Positions 13,227 through 44,414 of a DNA stretch of 64,000 nucleotides are shown here, piece after piece. This stretch comes from Parabacteroides goldsteinii (GTDB lineage Bacteria > Bacteroidota > Bacteroidia > Bacteroidales > Tannerellaceae): contig NZ_JADNBB010000008.1 in NCBI RefSeq assembly GCF_015550595.1, forward strand, positions 124,001 to 188,000. The letters are read 5' to 3'. Under the pieces are notes generated by a model. It searched no databases. It was not told the origin of the DNA and was given only the letters and a program-made list of their open reading frames with translations. Numbering within the stretch: position 1 is the first letter of the stretch; each line of letters opens with the position of its first letter. The translations under genes and the position numbers were made by a program.

Positions 13227-13535
13227 CATCAGGCACAAATTTAGGATAAAGGGGCACCGGAATGAATTTTCCGGTGCTTTTTTTATTATATATTCCGGAA
13301 GGTTAAAATTTGAATTTGGTAATGATTATCCTCAACTTTGATAATAGAACCATCTGGATAGTTAAAAAAGGACAAAGACTGAGTCGCTATTAAATTGTTA
13401 TTTATATCTTTGTTCCATCCCCCGATAAGTTTGCCGTAATTGCTTCCGGATAAATGATTTATTCGGCTGATAATTTGAAGAGTAAAAACAGAATTTATAT
13501 AGAACTTTATTTTAGTATTACTTAATTTGGATTTT
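13227..13535. other. Intergenic region with terminator and leader of the DUF6383 gene
   Basis: This 309-base AT-rich region holds the terminator at 13254-13284 and a TATCTTTG box at 13405-13412 with no good TTG upstream. A leader of about 115 bases then precedes the ATG at 13536. I found no inverted repeat here like that in front of the second DUF6383 gene. Confidence 0.6.
13254..13284 (+). terminator. Intrinsic terminator after the GH109-type gene
   Basis: GCACCGGAA at 13254-13262 pairs perfectly with TTCCGGTGC at 13269-13277, followed by seven Ts. Confidence 0.88.
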
Positions 13536-16500
13536 ATGAGTAAAACAATTACCTCGTTAATTGCCGGCTTATTGTTGTCGGTTTGTGTTTCATCTCATGT
13601 ATATGCTCAACCGAATGTAGGTGGGCATAATATCACGTTCCGCCCAACAGACGTGATGAGTAGTAATGAGATTGATAACGGCATAAATCATTTCGAAGCG
13701 AACAAATGGTATCAGCTGGTAAATGAAGATGGCAAATTATTGGTGCAGTATCGTCATTTCGCTTTTTATGGCGATGCTACTAATGGACTGGTTTTAAGGT
13801 TGGAATCTCCTGGTAGCGTACCGATCAACTATTCTTTGTGGTCTATCAAAGCATATGATGACGGACACAGCGGAAAGAATTTCGTGTTTGTCAACAAGGA
13901 AACGAATATGGAACTGGAGTATGGACACGTAAAGGCTTATACTCAGGAAATGATTGACCACAGTTATCAAAATGTTACCTCCTATCTAGGCGGCTGTCTG
14001 AAAAACTGGACCTGGTACTCTACCGATAAGCAGGTGAATGATTTCGACTATGCTCCTTTGTATTCTTATTTCAGTAATCAGGACTCAGTTGTCGTTTTAC
14101 AGGAAAGCCCGTATTATTATGGAAATGAAATACTGGCCAGAAAATACTCAAAGGAGGAAGCCGGTGATGATATGAACGATATTCTCGGTGATATTATCAA
14201 GGTTAAACCTATTTTGGCAGGTGGTATAACTCTGAATGCAAATGCTGTAAATCAAATGGTGGATTTTCAGTATATGAATGATGCCTGGGGATTGTCAACG
14301 AATAATACTGTACAGTTTGATGCCTCTGTTACCCCGACTCAGACAAGTCCGCTGTTGACTAATCAGTTTGTAGCTGTGGATAACGAATATGATTATTTTC
14401 CGGGTATTTATAATGCTGACCCTGTAATCGGTCTTAGCTCCAATGAAGCATGGGATTATGTCAGGTTGCAAGTTCCGGGAGAAAGAGACGAATATGGTGA
14501 CTATGAATCATTCCAGACTTTGTACGTAGGGACTTCATTCTACGAAAAAAGTAGTAAAGAACTGAAACTGGAGCTTATGGATGGTAATCTGAAGGCTGCG
14601 AATATGCCGGATGATATTTCTGGTCTCACAGAGAAAGCATGGATTGCCCGTTCACTTTTCAAATTCACTTATTATCCTTCACAGGATAGCCTGGTGATAG
14701 AACCGATGAATGCTTCTTATAAGAATGCTGCTTCCAACAAATGGATAAATGCCAATTATGCCTTCAACTCGACTAATAATGATATGCCAGCGATATGGGC
14801 TGCCAATGGAATAGATGCTCCGGAACATAACGATGAATATGGTTCCGTAGTTCTCCGTTTGGCTTACCTGACAGATAATACGTCTGTGATCACTGCCAAG
14901 AATACAGAGGTGGATGGCGAATATATACTCCCCGGCTCTTTACAGACCCGATTCTTCTTCAAGAACCGTGATTTTAATTACTTGACTCGTATTACATTAC
15001 CGGAAGGACTTTATTTTATCAAGAGTGCCGATAATGGTAGAAATGTTGTTGCCAACTTGCAGGGACGTCTGATGTTTGACGCACCGGAAGATGATCAGAA
15101 TTATGACGATATGCCTGCAACAATGTGGGTGGTAAAGACAACCGGTTGTGGTGATAGAGCTACTGTTGCTATCTATAACCGCGAATATGCATTCGATTAT
15201 GGCATGCTTATCAGGGATGAACCATCGGTAGATCTTAGGATGTCCTATAACGATTATTGGAATATGTGCCAAGATACAGTCCCGGTCTTTGAAGGTCAGT
15301 TATATAAAGATAAAGACGGTAATATTTTCTTTATTGATGAAAACTATCAGGGATTTGAGAAAAAAAGTTGCGAAGGTTGTAACTGGGCTTTGGATAACAT
15401 GCATAACTATAACTTCATTTCGGTAACTGACAATGAGGCTTTGACAAATGAACATCACGGATACAAACATCTTGATCCGGCATCATTGCTTTACACCAAG
15501 TATCGTCTTAACTACAACCTGTTTGCTAACGGTAATCTTTATCTGAATGTTGTGGACAACACCTTCATGCCGATAGAAAGTCAGTCCACCACTTATGAAT
15601 TGGAAATTGCTCCCGAAGACTTTAAAGCGACTGATTATGAGTTTGGTTACGGTGTGAACGTTGCCGGTTTGCCGCAATTGTCACGAACTGCTTATGTCTT
15701 GAAAGTGAGTGATAAGAACTTGATAGATAATGATAAGATGTATATCGCCCTGGTGGAAGAGTTCGGTAAAACAGCCTACTATCAGCCGATGAGTCGCGAA
15801 GATATCGAAGCAGGTAAAGGAAAGCTTGGTGTGTTCTACCTGAAAGCTGACCAACGTAAAGAGGATGAAAAATGCTATATCCTTATCGACATCTTCAATA
15901 ATAAGGTGAATGATTGTAATGAATGTCCTGATCCTACTCCTGTTCCTACTAGTGCTGGATTACGTAATACTCCTGCTCCGGACCCGGGCGATGACTGTGA
16001 AGATTGTGAGGAATGCACTCTTCCGAGATATTCTTACGCATTCAATGGCTGGAGACAAGCACATTGCGTAGATGGTATCGGTAAACTGAGTATTACCAAA
16101 TTGGATAAAGAAGCTGAAGACCGTTCATCTGCTTTTGCTGTTATTACCGACTATCGTCCATTATATATGGATCTGGGTGAAGAAGGTAAGCATGTCGATA
16201 TATACCGTGCAAGAGGTACCGGTCAGGAATTCCTGTTCGAAGATTCTAATAACCAGAGCATGGCTCCGCAGGTGGTGAAAGAATTCGGTTACTTAGGTAT
16301 GACAGCTGAAAAGATCCAGCCGATCGGTAAAGAAAGCAAAACTGCTATCTATGCTGACTATGTAACGAAATCTACTGACCGTATGCCTCAGTATCTGTTC
16401 GTTCTTCGTCCGGATTCAGTGAAAGACGGTAGGTGGTGTAACACCCACGGTTATAACCCGGGGTGCGAACACGAAGTTGATTATAACGGTTACCTGGCCG

Positions 16501-17231
16501 GTAGCTTCCTGATCAACCTGACTGACTCGGTGAAAGGTAATACTAACATGTTGAACAATCCTGACGTTTACAAATGGCAGTCTTACACTCGCCTTGGTTT
16601 CGTTGAAGGTGTTCACCAGGTGGATGCAACAGGCGAATATCTGTATATCCTGAAGAATGGTAAGAAATTGGCAGACCTGAGAACTAAGGACGGTGTTCTT
16701 GATCCTCGCGACCTGTACAATGAAGCTATCTTCGAAAAGAAACCGGTAGACGGCTTGCATAAGAACTATGCATTCTCTCTGCGTTACACAGACGACGCTC
16801 ATAAGGACTTCTTACTGGAATCCAACAAGGAAGGCGTATCGAGCATTGCTTCGTTTAAGGGCGCATGGGTGAAAATCCACAACGGTGTGCCTGTATTGGC
16901 AGAATACGAAGTAGACAACGGTAACCATGTGGACGATAAGGATAAGATGCAGGAACTGATCAACCAGTCTCAGATCTTCAATCTGGAAAATACAGACGAT
17001 TATGCAACTTCTAACGATGAGATTTCAACATCAAGTATTAGTATAGTTGCCGGTAACGGTTCAATCATCGTTCGTAATGCATCAGGTAAAGTAATAGCTG
17101 TTACAAATCTATTAGGCCAGCCGCTTGTAAACCGGACTATCACATCCGACAATGCAACAATTCCTGTACCTCAGGGCGTTGTAATCGTCAGTGTGGAAGG
17201 TGAAAAAGCAGTTAAGGCGATCGTGAAGTAA
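13536..17231 (+). CDS. Giant secreted protein with DUF6383-type C-terminus
   Basis: The ATG at 13536 (MSKTITSLIAGLLLSV) is preferred over the TTG at 13527 and gives 1231 residues. There is a signal peptide (ending VYAQ) and no internal membrane segment. The body is repetitive, aromatic and rich in Asp and Asn, with Cys clusters (CEGC, CNEC, CEDCEEC) around a Pro-rich linker at about 795-830. The last 250 or so residues match the protein at 40491: RxLINLxD-like FLINLTDS, FVEGVH, and a final 70-residue module with NLLGQPLVN and VPQGVVIVSVEGEKAVKAIVK. That tail resembles type A sorting tails of the type IX secretion system in layout (inference). A surface or adhesive role is likely; the substrate is unknown. 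It lies between the SusCD operon and a GH20 gene. Confidence 0.82.
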   Translation: MSKTITSLIAGLLLSVCVSSHVYAQPNVGGHNITFRPTDVMSSNEIDNGINHFEANKWYQLVNEDGKLLVQYRHFAFYGDATNGLVLRLESPGSVPINYSLWSIKAYDDGHSGKNFVFVNKETNMELEYGHVKAYTQEMIDHSYQNVTSYLGGCLKNWTWYSTDKQVNDFDYAPLYSYFSNQDSVVVLQESPYYYGNEILARKYSKEEAGDDMNDILGDIIKVKPILAGGITLNANAVNQMVDFQYMNDAWGLSTNNTVQFDASVTPTQTSPLLTNQFVAVDNEYDYFPGIYNADPVIGLSSNEAWDYVRLQVPGERDEYGDYESFQTLYVGTSFYEKSSKELKLELMDGNLKAANMPDDISGLTEKAWIARSLFKFTYYPSQDSLVIEPMNASYKNAASNKWINANYAFNSTNNDMPAIWAANGIDAPEHNDEYGSVVLRLAYLTDNTSVITAKNTEVDGEYILPGSLQTRFFFKNRDFNYLTRITLPEGLYFIKSADNGRNVVANLQGRLMFDAPEDDQNYDDMPATMWVVKTTGCGDRATVAIYNREYAFDYGMLIRDEPSVDLRMSYNDYWNMCQDTVPVFEGQLYKDKDGNIFFIDENYQGFEKKSCEGCNWALDNMHNYNFISVTDNEALTNEHHGYKHLDPASLLYTKYRLNYNLFANGNLYLNVVDNTFMPIESQSTTYELEIAPEDFKATDYEFGYGVNVAGLPQLSRTAYVLKVSDKNLIDNDKMYIALVEEFGKTAYYQPMSREDIEAGKGKLGVFYLKADQRKEDEKCYILIDIFNNKVNDCNECPDPTPVPTSAGLRNTPAPDPGDDCEDCEECTLPRYSYAFNGWRQAHCVDGIGKLSITKLDKEAEDRSSAFAVITDYRPLYMDLGEEGKHVDIYRARGTGQEFLFEDSNNQSMAPQVVKEFGYLGMTAEKIQPIGKESKTAIYADYVTKSTDRMPQYLFVLRPDSVKDGRWCNTHGYNPGCEHEVDYNGYLAGSFLINLTDSVKGNTNMLNNPDVYKWQSYTRLGFVEGVHQVDATGEYLYILKNGKKLADLRTKDGVLDPRDLYNEAIFEKKPVDGLHKNYAFSLRYTDDAHKDFLLESNKEGVSSIASFKGAWVKIHNGVPVLAEYEVDNGNHVDDKDKMQELINQSQIFNLENTDDYATSNDEISTSSISIVAGNGSIIVRNASGKVIAVTNLLGQPLVNRTITSDNATIPVPQGVVIVSVEGEKAVKAIVK

Positions 17232-37628: not shown

Positions 37629-39986
37629 ATGAGAAATCCAGTTAATCAAACCGTCGAATGTACCCTGTTCAGAACAGCATTCGACACCACCTCTTACACG
37701 GCGGTTACCCTCGGTGGCTATTTAGCCGATGTGGTAAACGGTAAGTATAAACAACAAGTAGAAAACGTTCGCGCCCTGGTCACCTCCGGCCATCAGGAAG
37801 AAGCGGGTATCTGTAAGAAGAACCTTCCCCTGCTCGTGGCAGGCGGGCGGATGGCAGGCGGCCGCAAACGTGAGCACCTGGTAGACTACTCCGGCTGCGT
37901 GGTGGGCGACCTCGACCATGTGTCCGGATCACCCTCGGAACTGCTTGGCCGCGCCAAAGAACTACCCTATGTAAAAGCAGGCCATATCAGCCCATCGGGT
38001 ACCGGTCTCAAACTCTTCGTGCTGGTAGACAGCGATATGGAACACCACGCCCAAGCCTTTGCAGTGGTGAGCCGCCTGCTCGAAACCGACCTGCCGGGCG
38101 TGAAGGTAGACCCTTCGGGCAAAGACCCCAACCGCGGTTGTTTTGTAAGCTACGACCCGTCAGCCTTTTATAAGGAAGAAGCCGAAGCGGTGCGCATCCC
38201 CATTGGCCCCGACAAGGCAGATGTCTTCTCTGAGGCGGAACCCCGTTCGCTGTCCAACTACATCGACAAGTTTGAAACCGGCAATCCTTTTGCTGACGGT
38301 GGCCGCCATAGCTACGTGGTGAAACTGGCCTCGGCTCTCAACAGTGCCGGCTTCGGCGAAAGCGAAGTAGTGGCCGAATGTCTCTACCGCTACACCGCTC
38401 CGGGTTTCGGTGAAAAAGAAATCCTTACTACCGTGTCCGACATTTACCGCCGTTACCGATCTGCCCACGGCAGTAATTCCTGCCGTCAGTTACCGGGTAT
38501 GGCGACGAAAAAAAGTATCAAAAATCTCAAAAGTATCACCCCCGTTTCCGAAGATGCACTTTCGGATGAAGGTTTCTCTATGGAGCCTGATTATGAACCC
38601 GTAGAGAGTGATTTTCCTCACTTTGAAAAACCCCTTTTGGCAACCCTTCCGAGTCTTCTCGCGGACGCTTTGAAGCCGGCCGCCGACGATACGGAACACG
38701 ACCTGATATTGCTCGCCGCACTCACCATGATTAGTACCGCGCTCCCGAATGTGAGAGGCTCGATGCAGAACGAAATCTATTATCCCCCGTTCTACACTGT
38801 CGTGACCGGCCCCTCGGGCAGTGGCAAGGGCTGTGTCAGCCGGGTGTTTAAAATGATAGAACCCTGGCAGCGTTCTGTCTACGATGATTCGTTCCGCAAG
38901 GTGGAGGAATATAATGTGCAAAAGGAAGCCTACGAGGGCTACAAACAACAGCAACGCCAGTCGCGAACTAAAAAGCCGGCCGGTATTCCTCCTGAATGTC
39001 CCCGCCCGGTGTACCAAAAGCAGCTTCACATGGGTGGCTACACGACTACCGCGCGTATGATCGCGCAGTTGGAAATAAACGCCCCTTATGCTTCCTTCTT
39101 GTTTGAAACCGAACTCGAGTCGGTGAACAACACCATGGCACAGGATTTTGGCGGCTACGGATACATTCTCAACCAGGCATTCCACGGCGAACGGGTGAGC
39201 TGTGCCTCGAAAACCAATGGAACCAACATCGTTGAGCGTCCGAAACTGGGTATGTTTCTAACCGGTACTCCCGGCATGTTCACCAAGCTCGTACCCTCTA
39301 CCGAAAACGGCCTTTTCAGCCGTCTCCTGATCTACCATATTGTCGGAGGAGGCACCTATCGCTGCCTGACCTCCGCAGACGATGATCCGAAGAATGCTTC
39401 TTATTTCAGCGAACTGGGCGAAAGATTGCGTCTGATGGCCGTGTTTCTCGAACAATCGGAGACGTTTGTAAGTTTCACCGACCGTCAGCGTAAGAAGCTC
39501 GACCGCTATTTCTCACGCGAATATTATAATGTACGCGTGTTCGGTAATGACGACGTTACCTCGGTCGTGTTGCGTCACCGCCTGATTATCTTCCGTATTG
39601 CCATGGTATTAACCGCCTTACGCAAAGCGGAGGAAGAAGTCAAGTTAAAACATTGCAGCATAACCGATGCCGACTTCGATGTGGCTTTCCATATCGGTAC
39701 TGTTTGCCTGCGTCATTCGATGCTGGTAAGCACCACCTTGAAGCATAGCGATACTGAGCGGCATTTTAAGATGCACACAGCCCAGCGCGACCTGTTTGCC
39801 GCCATGCCGGATAAGTTTAAAACAGCAACGCTGGTGGAAGAGGCGGTTGTCCGCGGGATCAGCCGTTCGAGTGCGTTCCGTATGCTGAAAAAGGCGCAGA
39901 TGTATGATTTATTGATCTCATTAGGTGCGGGTTACTATGATAAAACGGACTCGGGGAAAAATGTCATTATTTCGAAAAAGGGGTAG
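37629..39986 (+). CDS. VirE_N / DUF3987 primase-helicase-like protein
   Basis: A 785-residue protein. The N-terminal third is a BT4734/VirE N-terminal-type domain (about 20-185; GDLDHVSGSPSELLGRA, ISPSGTGLKLFVLVD). The middle and C-terminus are DUF3987, with a Walker A motif GPSGSGKGCVSR at about residue 397 and FETELESVNN after it. A winged-helix-like end has SRSSAFRMLKKAQMY. Such proteins resemble replication proteins of mobile elements, but in Bacteroidales they occur as fixed genes near variable surface loci. Base composition is clearly richer in GC than the flanking genes, a sign of different origin. The HU-like and amidase genes that often follow are missing. Confidence 0.85.
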   Translation: MRNPVNQTVECTLFRTAFDTTSYTAVTLGGYLADVVNGKYKQQVENVRALVTSGHQEEAGICKKNLPLLVAGGRMAGGRKREHLVDYSGCVVGDLDHVSGSPSELLGRAKELPYVKAGHISPSGTGLKLFVLVDSDMEHHAQAFAVVSRLLETDLPGVKVDPSGKDPNRGCFVSYDPSAFYKEEAEAVRIPIGPDKADVFSEAEPRSLSNYIDKFETGNPFADGGRHSYVVKLASALNSAGFGESEVVAECLYRYTAPGFGEKEILTTVSDIYRRYRSAHGSNSCRQLPGMATKKSIKNLKSITPVSEDALSDEGFSMEPDYEPVESDFPHFEKPLLATLPSLLADALKPAADDTEHDLILLAALTMISTALPNVRGSMQNEIYYPPFYTVVTGPSGSGKGCVSRVFKMIEPWQRSVYDDSFRKVEEYNVQKEAYEGYKQQQRQSRTKKPAGIPPECPRPVYQKQLHMGGYTTTARMIAQLEINAPYASFLFETELESVNNTMAQDFGGYGYILNQAFHGERVSCASKTNGTNIVERPKLGMFLTGTPGMFTKLVPSTENGLFSRLLIYHIVGGGTYRCLTSADDDPKNASYFSELGERLRLMAVFLEQSETFVSFTDRQRKKLDRYFSREYYNVRVFGNDDVTSVVLRHRLIIFRIAMVLTALRKAEEEVKLKHCSITDADFDVAFHIGTVCLRHSMLVSTTLKHSDTERHFKMHTAQRDLFAAMPDKFKTATLVEEAVVRGISRSSAFRMLKKAQMYDLLISLGAGYYDKTDSGKNVIISKKG

Positions 39987-40045
39987 AGACTTTTGAAACT
40001 ATTGAGACTTTTTATCGTATTCTTCCTCCTTGCCGATCCCCTTGT

Positions 40046-40128
40046 AAATGGGTAGGCACCGGACAAATAACGGGTAGTTACCCGTAGAAAATGAGTAGGC
40101 ATCGGAGGTGAAACGGATAGTTATCCAT
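40046..40128. repeat. Two tandem 43-base units carrying palindromes
   Basis: Each unit has AAATGnGTAGGCAnCGGA followed by a palindrome: ACGGGTA-GT-TACCCGT at 40070-40085 and ACGGATA-GT-TATCCAT at 40113-40128. The G-to-A change in the left arm is matched by C-to-T in the right arm, so the symmetry is kept. Confidence 0.65.
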
Positions 40129-40216
40129 CCAAAAACCGACTTTATTTAACATTTGTTGGATATAAGGCTATAAGCTATGAATAGCAAGGCGAGAGATCGA
40201 AAAAAGACTGACTAAA

Positions 40217-40405
40217 AAAATCGATCGTTTTTTATCGTCACAAAGGTAACTCATCATTTTGAAATACCAATCATTTCTTCCAATTTTTTTTCCATTCCTA
40301 TCTTCTTTCTTATCAACAGAATAGCAAAGCGAGTACGAAATTACTGCTTTTTGTCATCAAATCGAAATTTCTCAAAAACAGTGACGAGAAAAAACGATCG
40401 TTTTA
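40217..40405. repeat. Candidate invertible promoter segment
   Basis: Arms at 40217-40241 and 40381-40405 are inverted copies with 22 of 25 bases matching, around 139 bases. Weaker matching continues outward (TTTTAG and AGTC on both sides after a small gap). Each arm contains ACGATCG, and the right arm has AAACGATCGT, one base from the Mpi-type recombination consensus as I remember it (ARACGTWCGT). The only consensus promoter inside lies at the left arm and points left. Confidence 0.7.
40241..40270 (-). promoter_or_regulatory. Promoter inside the invertible segment, facing away from the DUF6383 gene
   Basis: On the - strand: TTG at 40270-40268, a 19-base spacer, then TACCTTTG at 40248-40241, touching the left repeat arm. 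After inversion it would lie beside the right arm, about 100 bases before the ATG at 40491 and pointing at it. Confidence 0.7.
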
Positions 40406-40425
40406 GCTAGTCATTAACATTTGGA

Positions 40426-40444
40426 AGCCTACCGAGAGTAGGCT
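40426..40444 (+). promoter_or_regulatory. Hairpin in the leader of the DUF6383 gene
   Basis: AGCCTAC (40426-40432), loop CGAGA, GTAGGCT (40438-40444). It is 46 bases before the start codon, with no terminator-like T-run directly after it; it may protect or regulate the mRNA. Confidence 0.55.
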
Positions 40445-40490
40445 GTGAGCGAGTTTTTATAACACTATTATTAATATTAAATTTTAAATT

Positions 40491-43400
40491 ATGAACAAAA
40501 AGTTTTCTACGTTAGTGGCTGTCCTTCTGGCAGCCGGTGCTTGGACAACGCTGGATGCTAAGGTAATTGAGGTTTCAACACCGGCAGCTGGTGGTTCTTA
40601 TTTGGTCGGTACGGGCATTAATGCCAGTGAAAGTACTGAGTACACTTTGTTGTTAGCGGCTGATGGAAAAGCAGCCCAAGCTGATAAAGATGCTGTAACT
40701 GCAGAATCTCCTGTTTGGAAATTAGTGGAAGCGGAGAAAGGTAAGTATAAATTACAGGCTGCAGATGGCAAGGTTTTTTATGCTGTAAATGGTGCAACCG
40801 AAGAAGCTGGTGGTAAGGTTTTGACTTTGTCAGCCGAGCCTATTGAGAATTCTTTACCTGTTTTGTTTACTATCGAAGACGATGGTAAGCTAAAGTTGGT
40901 TAATGTTGATGATTTTAGTAACAATACTGATATTACAGGTGAGTTGTACTTAAAGATTGAAGCTTCTCAGTGTTCTCTTGATGCAACAGGTGTTGTTATC
41001 GACTTCGGTGTTTACGCTTCAAACAATGAAAATGCGCTTCCCGGCTTTGATTTGAATGTAAGTGACAACGGTGAAGTTGTTTTGGATGCATTTGATGCGT
41101 CTAAAACTTACGAAGCTCCTGTTTATTTCCAGACAGAAGACGGTTATCTGACAGTAGCATCTGAAGATGGTAAATTAGTCGTAAAAACATTAAAAGCTGC
41201 TCCTACTGCTGCACAATCTTATAATGCATCTTGGATATGGGCAGAAGGAAAGTTGGTTTCTGTTGCTGCTGTTGCTGCAAAAGAAAAAGCGACTCAATTG
41301 GTTGTGGCTAATGTTGTTGCAAGAGCTGCTGGCTCTGTGACTTACACATTGGCAGGAACAGGTTCTGAGTTTGCTGTAAAAGATAATGCGATTACTTCTG
41401 TTGCTGCTGCTAACTTAGCTGGAACTGCTCTTTATGCATCAGCAAGTGTAAATGCAACTGCTGCTCCGGCATCAACTATTGCTGTAACAGGCAGCCAGAA
41501 TATTGTTGAAGGATCTTATAAACTGGCAACATCAGTTCCTTCCGGTTATTGTGTTGTTACATTGGGTACCGACAAATATTTGAAAGCTGGCGCAACAGCG
41601 ACTGTTGAAACAAGTATTTCTGCAAATGATATTGAAGGTTATAAAAACTTCTTGTGGTCTGTTGCAAAAACAGAACTGAATGGAAAAGTTTTCTATAGCT
41701 TCACTAGCTTGGCTAAAGGTGCAGATAATAAACCTTATAAATGGACTGTTAGTGGCGAAACTTCATTTGAAGCAAACGAAGCATATAGTGAAAGAGGTAT
41801 TACGTTAGCTACTTCGGCTAATCCTATTCAAGCTAATGGAACAGCAGGTGCTTCAGCTGCCGTTATCGGTTTCTACGAATCTTTTGCTTTGGCTCATACA
41901 CAGGCTAAATTAAATAGCATCCTTAATCCGGGCTTCGAGCTGACTGTTAAGTACGATAAAGACAAAAACAAAGATAAAACGATTGAAAATGTCGATGTAC
42001 TGCAGCAAAAAATGTATCCGGAAGGTGACGACGCTGCAACTAAGGTCGCATTGTGGAATAACGAAAAGCTAGACCAAGGTAAAAATGCTAAGAAATTAGT
42101 ATTGGATACTAAGGGTACTGTAGGTAGTGATGTTATCGGTGAATTCAAGTGGTTAACTCAGAAAGAAATCGATAAGGGAACAACAGGTCAGTACTTGTCT
42201 GAATTCCAGTTCCAGTATGCTCAAGGTAATCCTGATGTGATCTCTAAATTAGTTGTAGTAGATAAAGGTAATGTTTCTATCTTGTTCAATGATAACAAAT
42301 ATTATCTGACAACTTCTATCGCTGCTGATGCTAAGTTGCCGTATATCAAACTGGGTGCAAGCAACGTCTACGATGTTAAGAAATTGTTAGGACAGTACCT
42401 GAATTTCTCTTATGCTGATACAAGAGCAAATGCAAAAGACAATAGCGAAGAGTATAAGTATGCAGGTGTTTTGGCTGTAACTAATGAGGATGGAACAGAT
42501 CCGACAGATAATGCTGCGGATTATGTACCAGCAAGTACAGTATTATTGTCTTCTCCGGAAGCACAGTGGGCTGTAATCGCTGCCGATTTGGATAATAATA
42601 CCTTCACATTGCAGAACCGTGAAAGCGGCATTAAGATTGCAAATGTGCAATTGCGTGAAGTAGATGGCGATAAGTTTATTGTTACATCTGATAATACGGC
42701 ATTCAATGATGACCTTGTAACTTTGAACAAAACAGCTGCAAAAGGTCAGATCAACTTTGATGGTTACATGCAGACAACTGCAAACGTATTGAGAAATGAA
42801 AACTTCTATCTGGGTCAGTATCATGCTATCGAAGGAAATAACAATGCTTATTTCGTTGAAAACCATACTGACAAAGCAAGCCATCAGATCGGTATGACTG
42901 CTGAAAAGGAAAATGCCCAGAAATGGAACCTGCGTTTTGCAATGAAAGCGGATAATGAAGGTGAATATACAGAAGTTGATACTGTATTTATTTACACGAC
43001 ATTTGCAACATTGAAAGATGGTAAGATCGTAACTTCAGGTGATGATGCATTGAAAGATACATTGGCTATCCTTCCGTATGCATTCCAGAATGCTTCTAAC
43101 CGTGAATTTGTTGATTACAAAACAGGTAAAGGTTATGAATTCTATTTCTGTGATCCTGAAAACAAGGATAACGAAGATCAGGATGCTGCTCGTTTCGCTC
43201 TGAAGAAGAAACCGAATGACACTTATAACTTCGTAAGAATTGCTCCGGCAGTAACAGAAGCAACTCCTGCTGCAACTAAATTGGATGATAACAAAGTATT
43301 TGTTGCCAACAGTGCAGACAAGGGTTCTTTGAAGAATATGCTGACCTATGCTGAAGATCAGAACTCTCTGATGGTTGTTGAAAAAGCTGATTCTCCTGAA

Positions 43401-44414
43401 TATCATAAAATTGCTGCTGCATGGGGTGACACAATCAAGTTGTTCCGTAACGAAAATAACTCGCAGGTATTGTATGAAAAACTGGATGCAAAATCAGTTG
43501 TCGAAAATGATTCTTTGAGCTTCCTGAACATTGATAATGTAAATCAGTTCAAGGTAAATCCGGCTATTTTTGCAGATACAGCTTATATCAATCGTGTAGA
43601 TGTTGACGGTGAACTGAACACTTGCTACCAGTATTTACTGGCTGTAAATGTAGATCCTGAAAAGTCTTACTATTGCCCGTACAACCCGACTCACAACACA
43701 GACGAGTGGAGAGATGCTAATGGTGGTCCTTGTGCAGATGCAAAAGAAAACAGAGCTGTTCACGGTCGCTTCCTGATCAACCTGATCGATACTGCTAATG
43801 TTTACGGTGTAGACCATATCCACAGCAATCCATATATCAATGAAGTTGAAGCAGGTGAAAGCCTTGCCAAGCTGTCATTCGTAGAAGGTGTTCATGCTGG
43901 CGATACATTGTATGTAACTCGTAAGGGTGGTGAAGCTGTGAAGATTGCTATGGATTCTCCTGAGTTCAACGTAGCTAAGTTCGCTTTCCGTTATGTGGAT
44001 AGTGCAGAAAAGATATTCAAAATTCAGACTCAGTGGAAGCCGTATTCTCCGGAAACTGATGTTGATAAAATTGAAAAGGCTGCAACTAACGAAGGTTACC
44101 TGAAATGGATCAATGGTACAGTTGTAGTTGTGAATGATTTCGAAAGAGGTGATGTATTCGGTATCGAAGAAAACTACGAAGGTGATCCTGTAGCTAACGA
44201 AGATATCACAACTTCTTCAATCAGTGTAATCGCTAAAGAAGGTGCCGTAATTATCAACGGTGCAGCTGGTAAGAAAGTTGCTATCAGCAACGTTCTTGGT
44301 CAGACAATTGCTAACACAGTTCTTTCTTCTGACAATGCTACTATCGCTGCTCCTGCAGGTGTAGTTGTTGTAGCTGTAGAAGGCGAAGCAGCTGTAAAGG
44401 CAATCGTAAAATAA
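40491..44414 (+). CDS. Giant DUF6383 surface protein under phase-variable-type control
   Basis: A 1307-residue exported protein with a signal peptide (residues 1-23, ending LDAK). The first 350 residues are rich in Ala, Val and Thr and low in Cys, as in S-layer or adhesin stalks. The last 250 match the protein at 13536 (GRFLINLIDT, FVEGVH, DTLYVTRKGGE), and the final 70 residues form the DUF6383 module with SNVLGQTIAN and APAGVVVVAVEGEAAVKAIVK. The module recalls type IX secretion sorting tails (inference). Codon use is biased as in highly expressed genes. The promoter region appears invertible and OFF in this sequence. A phase-variable surface-layer-like or adhesive role is likely but unproven. 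Confidence 0.85.
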   Translation: MNKKFSTLVAVLLAAGAWTTLDAKVIEVSTPAAGGSYLVGTGINASESTEYTLLLAADGKAAQADKDAVTAESPVWKLVEAEKGKYKLQAADGKVFYAVNGATEEAGGKVLTLSAEPIENSLPVLFTIEDDGKLKLVNVDDFSNNTDITGELYLKIEASQCSLDATGVVIDFGVYASNNENALPGFDLNVSDNGEVVLDAFDASKTYEAPVYFQTEDGYLTVASEDGKLVVKTLKAAPTAAQSYNASWIWAEGKLVSVAAVAAKEKATQLVVANVVARAAGSVTYTLAGTGSEFAVKDNAITSVAAANLAGTALYASASVNATAAPASTIAVTGSQNIVEGSYKLATSVPSGYCVVTLGTDKYLKAGATATVETSISANDIEGYKNFLWSVAKTELNGKVFYSFTSLAKGADNKPYKWTVSGETSFEANEAYSERGITLATSANPIQANGTAGASAAVIGFYESFALAHTQAKLNSILNPGFELTVKYDKDKNKDKTIENVDVLQQKMYPEGDDAATKVALWNNEKLDQGKNAKKLVLDTKGTVGSDVIGEFKWLTQKEIDKGTTGQYLSEFQFQYAQGNPDVISKLVVVDKGNVSILFNDNKYYLTTSIAADAKLPYIKLGASNVYDVKKLLGQYLNFSYADTRANAKDNSEEYKYAGVLAVTNEDGTDPTDNAADYVPASTVLLSSPEAQWAVIAADLDNNTFTLQNRESGIKIANVQLREVDGDKFIVTSDNTAFNDDLVTLNKTAAKGQINFDGYMQTTANVLRNENFYLGQYHAIEGNNNAYFVENHTDKASHQIGMTAEKENAQKWNLRFAMKADNEGEYTEVDTVFIYTTFATLKDGKIVTSGDDALKDTLAILPYAFQNASNREFVDYKTGKGYEFYFCDPENKDNEDQDAARFALKKKPNDTYNFVRIAPAVTEATPAATKLDDNKVFVANSADKGSLKNMLTYAEDQNSLMVVEKADSPEYHKIAAAWGDTIKLFRNENNSQVLYEKLDAKSVVENDSLSFLNIDNVNQFKVNPAIFADTAYINRVDVDGELNTCYQYLLAVNVDPEKSYYCPYNPTHNTDEWRDANGGPCADAKENRAVHGRFLINLIDTANVYGVDHIHSNPYINEVEAGESLAKLSFVEGVHAGDTLYVTRKGGEAVKIAMDSPEFNVAKFAFRYVDSAEKIFKIQTQWKPYSPETDVDKIEKAATNEGYLKWINGTVVVVNDFERGDVFGIEENYEGDPVANEDITTSSISVIAKEGAVIINGAAGKKVAISNVLGQTIANTVLSSDNATIAAPAGVVVVAVEGEAAVKAIVK

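Follow-up and report, generated by a model that had tools for sequence, protein, structure and literature searches.

Does the inverted-repeat-flanked promoter in front of a giant surface protein gene of Parabacteroides goldsteinii work as a switch, and does it stand alone or belong to a set? The question is raised by a stretch of 64,000 nucleotides of this genome (G000 in our set; the stretch is called the window below), for which a preliminary description had proposed an invertible promoter caught in the OFF orientation. We find that positions 40209-40413 are one of 16 inverted-repeat-flanked promoter segments that precede DUF6383 genes in this genome, with their promoters directed away from the genes.

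The window locus and its protein

The 139-bp segment at 40242-40380, whose homologues at two other loci are inverted between genomes, lies between a left, gene-distal arm (40209-40241) and a right, gene-proximal arm (40381-40413), with CGATCG cores at 40222-40227 and 40395-40400. The arms are complementary at 28 of 33 positions (85%) across the 139-nt spacer, and the 25-nt arms described earlier (22/25) form the core of this longer pair. It is the top 33-nt pair in 38501-42500 for loops of 100-200 nt, and the best pairs in 30 dinucleotide shuffles of these 4 kb reached 19-22 of 33; the inverted repeat is far above chance. The five mismatched positions spare the CGATCG core, which is kept in both arms. 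As for the motif AACGATCGTT, which had been assigned to both arms, it is present in the right one, and the left one is one base off.

The promoter, TTG-N19-TACCTTTG, is of the Bacteroidales type and lies on the minus strand (40270-40241), adjoining the left arm and sharing its final base, 40241, with it. It points away from the gene, as first described, and no forward TAnnTTTG is found in 39981-40490. When the segment is inverted in silico, the -7 box ends 109 bp ahead of the start codon (ATG at 40491), where the preliminary description had estimated about 100 bases. Further inside the segment, also on the minus strand, is the core of a conserved upstream element, TTTCGTAC-N9-TAT-N4-TTGATAAGAAA (40306-40340, equivalent to G000:C84:164306-164340). 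The leader on the plus strand (40414-40490) contains a TTAATATTAAA stretch common to many family members, followed by ATGAACAAAAAG. It leads into the open reading frame at 40491-44414 (plus strand), which encodes the predicted surface protein of 1307 residues reported before, with a C-terminal DUF6383 domain at residues 1233-1306 (107.7 bits).

DUF6383 is presented as a putative T9SS targeting domain in PMC9722745. We modelled the last 125 residues of the window protein with AlphaFold (34 rows, mean pLDDT 77.5, pTM 0.47). The eight best PDB matches of the model are type IX sorting domains or components, namely complexes with RemZ, RemA and NucA substrates, RgpB, mirolase, another cargo domain and PorZ; their E values are 0.004-0.03, and no fold match reached E <= 0.001. 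A sequence model of type A sorting domains matched two of the four tails searched, both below the cut-off, and did not match the tail of the window protein itself. The genome encodes two PorU-family proteins over the cut-off of 420 bits (1193 and 1076 bits) and has ten Por_Secre_tail matches, three of them over the cut-off. On balance, the window protein is probably a type IX cargo displayed at the cell surface.

Directly 5' of this gene is a DUF3987/BT4734-like gene (37629-39986), an arrangement also seen at three homologous genes. At the corresponding locus of genome G037, identity is 92% along the whole DUF6383 gene and 98-99% for the genes downstream. The upstream DUF3987 gene of G037 is 77% identical to the window's copy and 98% (over 322 aa compared) to that of another locus of G000, L046, which indicates that recombination between loci reaches the upstream side too. 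By these comparisons, the DUF3987 and DUF6383 genes appear to form one duplicated module, subject to recombination among loci. The window also harbours a second DUF6383 gene (13527-17231, L061), devoid of Mpi-type arms and of a match to the family-element pattern; in G037, a corresponding gene, L160, shares its flank and is 67% identical in the N-part, and G009 contains a gene similar to it, L158.

Inversion, invertase and the OFF bias

A BLASTN search of this genome with 40150-40491 returned 17 matches of 118-342 nt, the query included, and many single arms. DUF6383 itself was matched 24 times at E <= 0.01; we classified 22 of these matches, the remaining two being pieces of one broken gene on contig C29. 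Sixteen of the 20 full-length DUF6383 genes have inverted-repeat-flanked promoters, and all 16 are OFF, including L054, which adjoins an assembly gap. A forward promoter with the upstream element and no arms precedes L058, and other promoters precede L060, L061, L063, L066 and L067. The arms are related among these 16 loci and six other inverted-repeat-flanked segments of the genome, four of which have a promoter match. The neighbours of the six are a polysaccharide gene, a MarR-TolC-HlyD operon, a glycosyltransferase gene, an ECF sigma gene, a DUF6261 gene and a TonB-receptor gene. In the segment next to the MarR-TolC-HlyD operon (L069:2872-3083, contig C7), which is of the Mpi type, the promoter is directed towards the operon and is apparently ON.

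DUF6383 was detected at E <= 1e-6 in 35 of 38 genomes of the genus. We determined promoter orientation in ten Parabacteroides genomes, chosen for assembly quality or pattern matches rather than at random; every DUF6383 match at E <= 1e-10 was examined in nine of them (minus the broken C29 gene in G000), and 12 of 21 in G001. Among the invertible promoters of this census, 97 of 101 are OFF and four are ON, an ON share with a 95% interval of 1-10% for loci that are related and hence non-independent. The OFF/ON counts are 16/0 in G000, 8/0 in G001, 4/1 in G002, 5/0 in G003, 9/0 in G004, 20/0 in G009, 8/0 in G012, 3/1 in G013, 7/1 in G014 and 17/1 in G037. The ON loci are L258 in G002, assigned on weak arms (18/24), L182 in G013, L185 in G014 and L156 in G037. 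The census draws on 139 rows, of which L188 and L126 were set by hand to OFF and L197, with an 18/24 repeat devoid of the arm core, to locked ON (see below); L141, L158 and L166 were moved by hand to other classes, and L259 (assembly gap upstream), L264 (no start) and L248 (a fragment) are unclassified. Exact patterns gave 48 OFF matches, in six genomes, and one ON match across the 38 genomes, and an orientation-blind pattern gave 28 loci in named records, with arms in 26 and none ON; many of these loci overlap the census.

Mutual exclusion of ON states was dropped, as four ON loci in four genomes is the chance expectation (P = 0.44). In seven DUF6383 genes (L113, L119, L121, L141, L150, L165 and L166), the forward-facing promoter sits near -406 and the leader is long; these promoters have no Mpi-type arms and represent another control class, not part of the invertible set. 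The finding of the same central dinucleotide in both arms (101 of 102 rows) was discarded because the search procedure is biased towards arms that match and because some rows have a wrong register.

Opposite orientations at homologous positions were found at two other loci. Between L059 of G000 (OFF) and L156 of G037 (ON), identity of the segments rises from 42% as they stand to 89% when one is reversed, with flanks at 93% and 98% in the same orientation. Likewise, L187 of G012 (OFF) and L185 of G014 (ON) have segments 42% identical in the same orientation and 71% reversed, between flanks at 75% and 100%. As read from these alignments, both differences are inversions between species, not within a strain. 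The window's own locus was seen in the OFF orientation alone among the genomes compared, its relatives L130 and L131 included, for assemblies whose consensus may conceal minority orientations.

The genome encodes a serine recombinase of 200 aa (G000:C3:53776-54375) that matches the 'master DNA invertase Mpi family' model NF009949 with 323.4 bits (cut-off 272). A relative at E <= 1e-20 is present in 34 of the 38 genomes, and G021 has a distant one only; G000 has five further serine-recombinase matches. We infer that the Mpi-family enzyme acts on the arms of the DUF6383 segments. Tyrosine-type recombinases occur at P. distasonis capsule loci according to PMC8400631, so Mpi is not the sole type of invertase in the genus. 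A single arm-like site (L075:2687-2718) is located about 60 bp 5' of the ATG of the Mpi-family gene and is identical in G037 and G009; in G004, the search for such a site did not find the start of the invertase gene. Possibly, this site serves autoregulation.

With 16 such promoters in the genome, opposite orientations at two loci and an Mpi-family invertase, the proposal of an invertible promoter caught OFF is supported. The gene had been suggested to be a new member of a phase-variable set or a new class: the findings fit the former and not the latter.

An armless promoter and a shared upstream element

In all ten genomes, a similar promoter that has the upstream element and no arms faces one DUF6383 gene, an arrangement that we call locked ON (L058, L125, L137, L186, L197, L200, L208, L257, L254 and L263); 'one' is a lower bound in G001, where 12 of 21 genes were examined, and in G002, where an assembly gap precedes one gene. 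Protein identity in G000, G037 and G009 is 91-99% for the genes immediately on either side of the locked gene and 28-40% for the locked gene itself, and genes farther downstream diverge more. At a different site in G012, G013 and G014, most neighbours are again 91-99% identical, the nearest upstream gene of G013, on the opposite strand, being at 81-85%; the locked gene of G013 is 86% identical to that of G014 and 42-43% to that of G012. The neighbours of the locked site differ among these two clades and G004.

At the DNA level, identity at the locked site is about 100% until the first codons and resumes in the last 120-220 nt. The breaks fall within approximately the first 15 codons and within that 3' stretch; in G012, a weaker similarity extends farther inward. 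In two cases, a close relative of a locked gene stands behind an invertible OFF promoter in another species: the G037 gene is 73% identical over its full length to such a gene in G009, and the G013/G014 gene 77-81% to one in G012. For the locked gene of G000, L058 (G000:C22:160958-164005), which was compared separately, there is no close relative among 167 sequences, most of them N-terminal parts only, the best being other locked genes at 47%; the comparison for the other locked genes left out L049 and L061. Six of the seven locked genes compared can be aligned along their length (39-52%, and 86% for G013/G014), so that the site may be favoured by one subfamily, and some of the pairs may represent orthologues that have diverged. 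Where swaps at invertible loci were deduced from the upstream flank alone, the evidence is weakened, because the upstream DUF3987 gene at the window locus is a repeated module; we keep the claim of gene exchange to the locked site, since both sides were checked there.

The upstream element spans about 45 bp, is positioned 44-46 bp 5' of the -33 TTG, and was found in 104 promoters selected for carrying TTGATAAG or TTGATAATA, one of which (L158) is a false row. Outside the selected letters, TTT at -24 to -22 is conserved at 97-100%, and the AAAG that follows those letters at 98-100%. With up to three mismatches, a longer pattern of the element occurs at 15 places in the 6.5-Mb genome, all 15 at DUF6383 promoters (14 invertible and one locked); the invertible loci L051 and L054 have a variant that it misses, and a reversed-pattern control gave one place. 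None of the six other inverted-repeat-flanked segments contains a full copy, and two have the 8-mer of the element with one mismatch. As the armless promoters retain the element, we infer that it is a candidate activator site.

A GTAC palindrome, e.g. TAATGTACGCGTACATTA, is found outside the invertible segment, mostly at -290 to -410 from the ATG. It is present at 10 of 10 locked loci, 47 of 97 invertible loci and 4 of 199 background windows, and absent from the window's locus. Its presence upstream of those 47 invertible loci refutes it as a mark of locked sites.

The preliminary description did not extend to the bias towards OFF, the locked-ON locus with its differing genes, or the family element.

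A proposed route from OFF promoters to a changing coat

How might these parts work together? The Mpi-family serine invertase would flip the DUF6383 promoter segments; in the window, flipping would bring the promoter to a position about 109 bp 5' of the start codon, and the large product would be made, exported by the type IX system via its DUF6383 tail and shown on the surface. Most invertible copies would be held OFF as an archive, and one DUF6383 gene per genome would be driven by a repeat-less version of this promoter. Over evolutionary time, the locked site might receive different genes by homologous recombination at two shared ends, a 5' one made up of promoter, leader and first codons and a 3' one formed by DUF6383, and a common factor bound to the element 44-46 bp 5' of -33 might activate whichever members face their gene. 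We regard this model as a whole, with an Mpi-invertible OFF archive, a locked-ON site subject to gene replacement and a common activator, as probable on the sequence comparisons described here. It is tempting to go further and speculate that the coat varies in two tiers, with a gene at the locked-ON site that recombination across conserved ends exchanges, a mostly OFF archive of up to about 20 genes and one dedicated activator for the family-only element of about 45 bp; this broader proposal is possible, and we put it forward tentatively.

Ordinary Mpi-type phase variation, in which each locus flips independently and the locked-ON gene is a fixed-promoter member of the family with no special role, is quite possible, if short of likely. 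It accords with the known pattern of an Mpi-family invertase and inverted-repeat-flanked segments near capsule, efflux and TonB-receptor genes, with ON states spread over the genomes as by chance, and with six of seven locked genes forming one loose subfamily. Against it stand the armless forward promoter with the same element in every one of the ten genomes and, in two clades, a conserved setting around genes that differ and whose close relatives occupy invertible loci. That loose relatedness bears also on whether the locked-site genes were replaced at all or are orthologues that diverged very fast in place, as their alignability along the length and the isolation of this genome's locked gene among the sequences compared would allow. 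We consider fast divergence rather unlikely, given that G037 has a gene only 28-30% identical to its counterparts in G000 and G009, that the breaks are sharp, that the 73% relative of this gene sits at an invertible locus of G009, and that G012 compares likewise with G013/G014.

The two remaining alternatives concern the segments themselves. The element might be a recombination enhancer for the invertase and not an activator site; its location inside invertible segments, where its spacing to the promoter hardly varies, would suit such a function, but its retention in ten armless locked promoters and the absence of a full copy from the six other segments, two of which have the 8-mer with one mismatch, make an enhancer improbable. 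As for the possibility that the arms are relics, with a segment that no longer inverts and a gene that is silent or transcribed from elsewhere, the single orientation of 97 in 101 promoters and the five differences between the 33-nt arms of the window could be taken that way. The opposite orientations between genomes at two loci, the four ON loci overall and the intact CGATCG core in both window arms nevertheless render relic arms highly improbable.

If the model of an OFF archive and an exchangeable locked-ON site is correct, a common gut commensal would practise antigenic variation by means of an expression site and an archive. Phase variation would then be linked to gene exchange, and the choice of one surface protein among some twenty would become testable. 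Flippable silent promoters, together with a locked promoter that serves different genes in different species, may be how the coat changes. Were the activator scarce, expression would approach a single gene, and the family-specific element provides a concrete handle towards the regulator.

Fletcher et al. (PNAS, 2007) reportedly described a phase-variable S-layer glycoprotein family in P. distasonis, with DgpA, DgpC and others. One of our ten genomes, which we take to be P. distasonis ATCC 8503, has nine invertible DUF6383 promoters. Nine S-layer glycoproteins are attributed to P. distasonis in a review (PMC11647740), and sizes of 140 and 90 kDa to DgpA and DgpC in PMC2943079. The matching counts suggest that Dgp proteins may carry DUF6383, and the link of the window locus to these glycoproteins is indirect. 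Like the Dgp set, the genes described here form a family of large, predicted surface proteins under probable phase-variable control; unlike it, the family in this genome has 16 invertible members. In the portions of the PubMed Central literature covered, with a narrow search for gene exchange, we found no mention of the locked-ON site, of gene exchange there or of the element, some of which Fletcher 2007 may contain.

In Bacteroides fragilis, the global invertase Mpi (Coyne et al. 2003) controls at least 13 regions, including seven polysaccharide loci (PMC5903667). The system described here resembles it in having a serine invertase of the same NCBIfam family and dispersed segments whose arms are related, some of them close to polysaccharide genes, and differs in that most segments precede surface-protein genes instead of capsule operons. 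The sap genes of Campylobacter fetus and the VSG genes of trypanosomes have in common one active site and silent genes with conserved ends. By analogy, the locked-ON site and the OFF archive might correspond to such a single active site with its silent set, except that here the silent genes own flippable promoters and replacement is deduced from differences between species.
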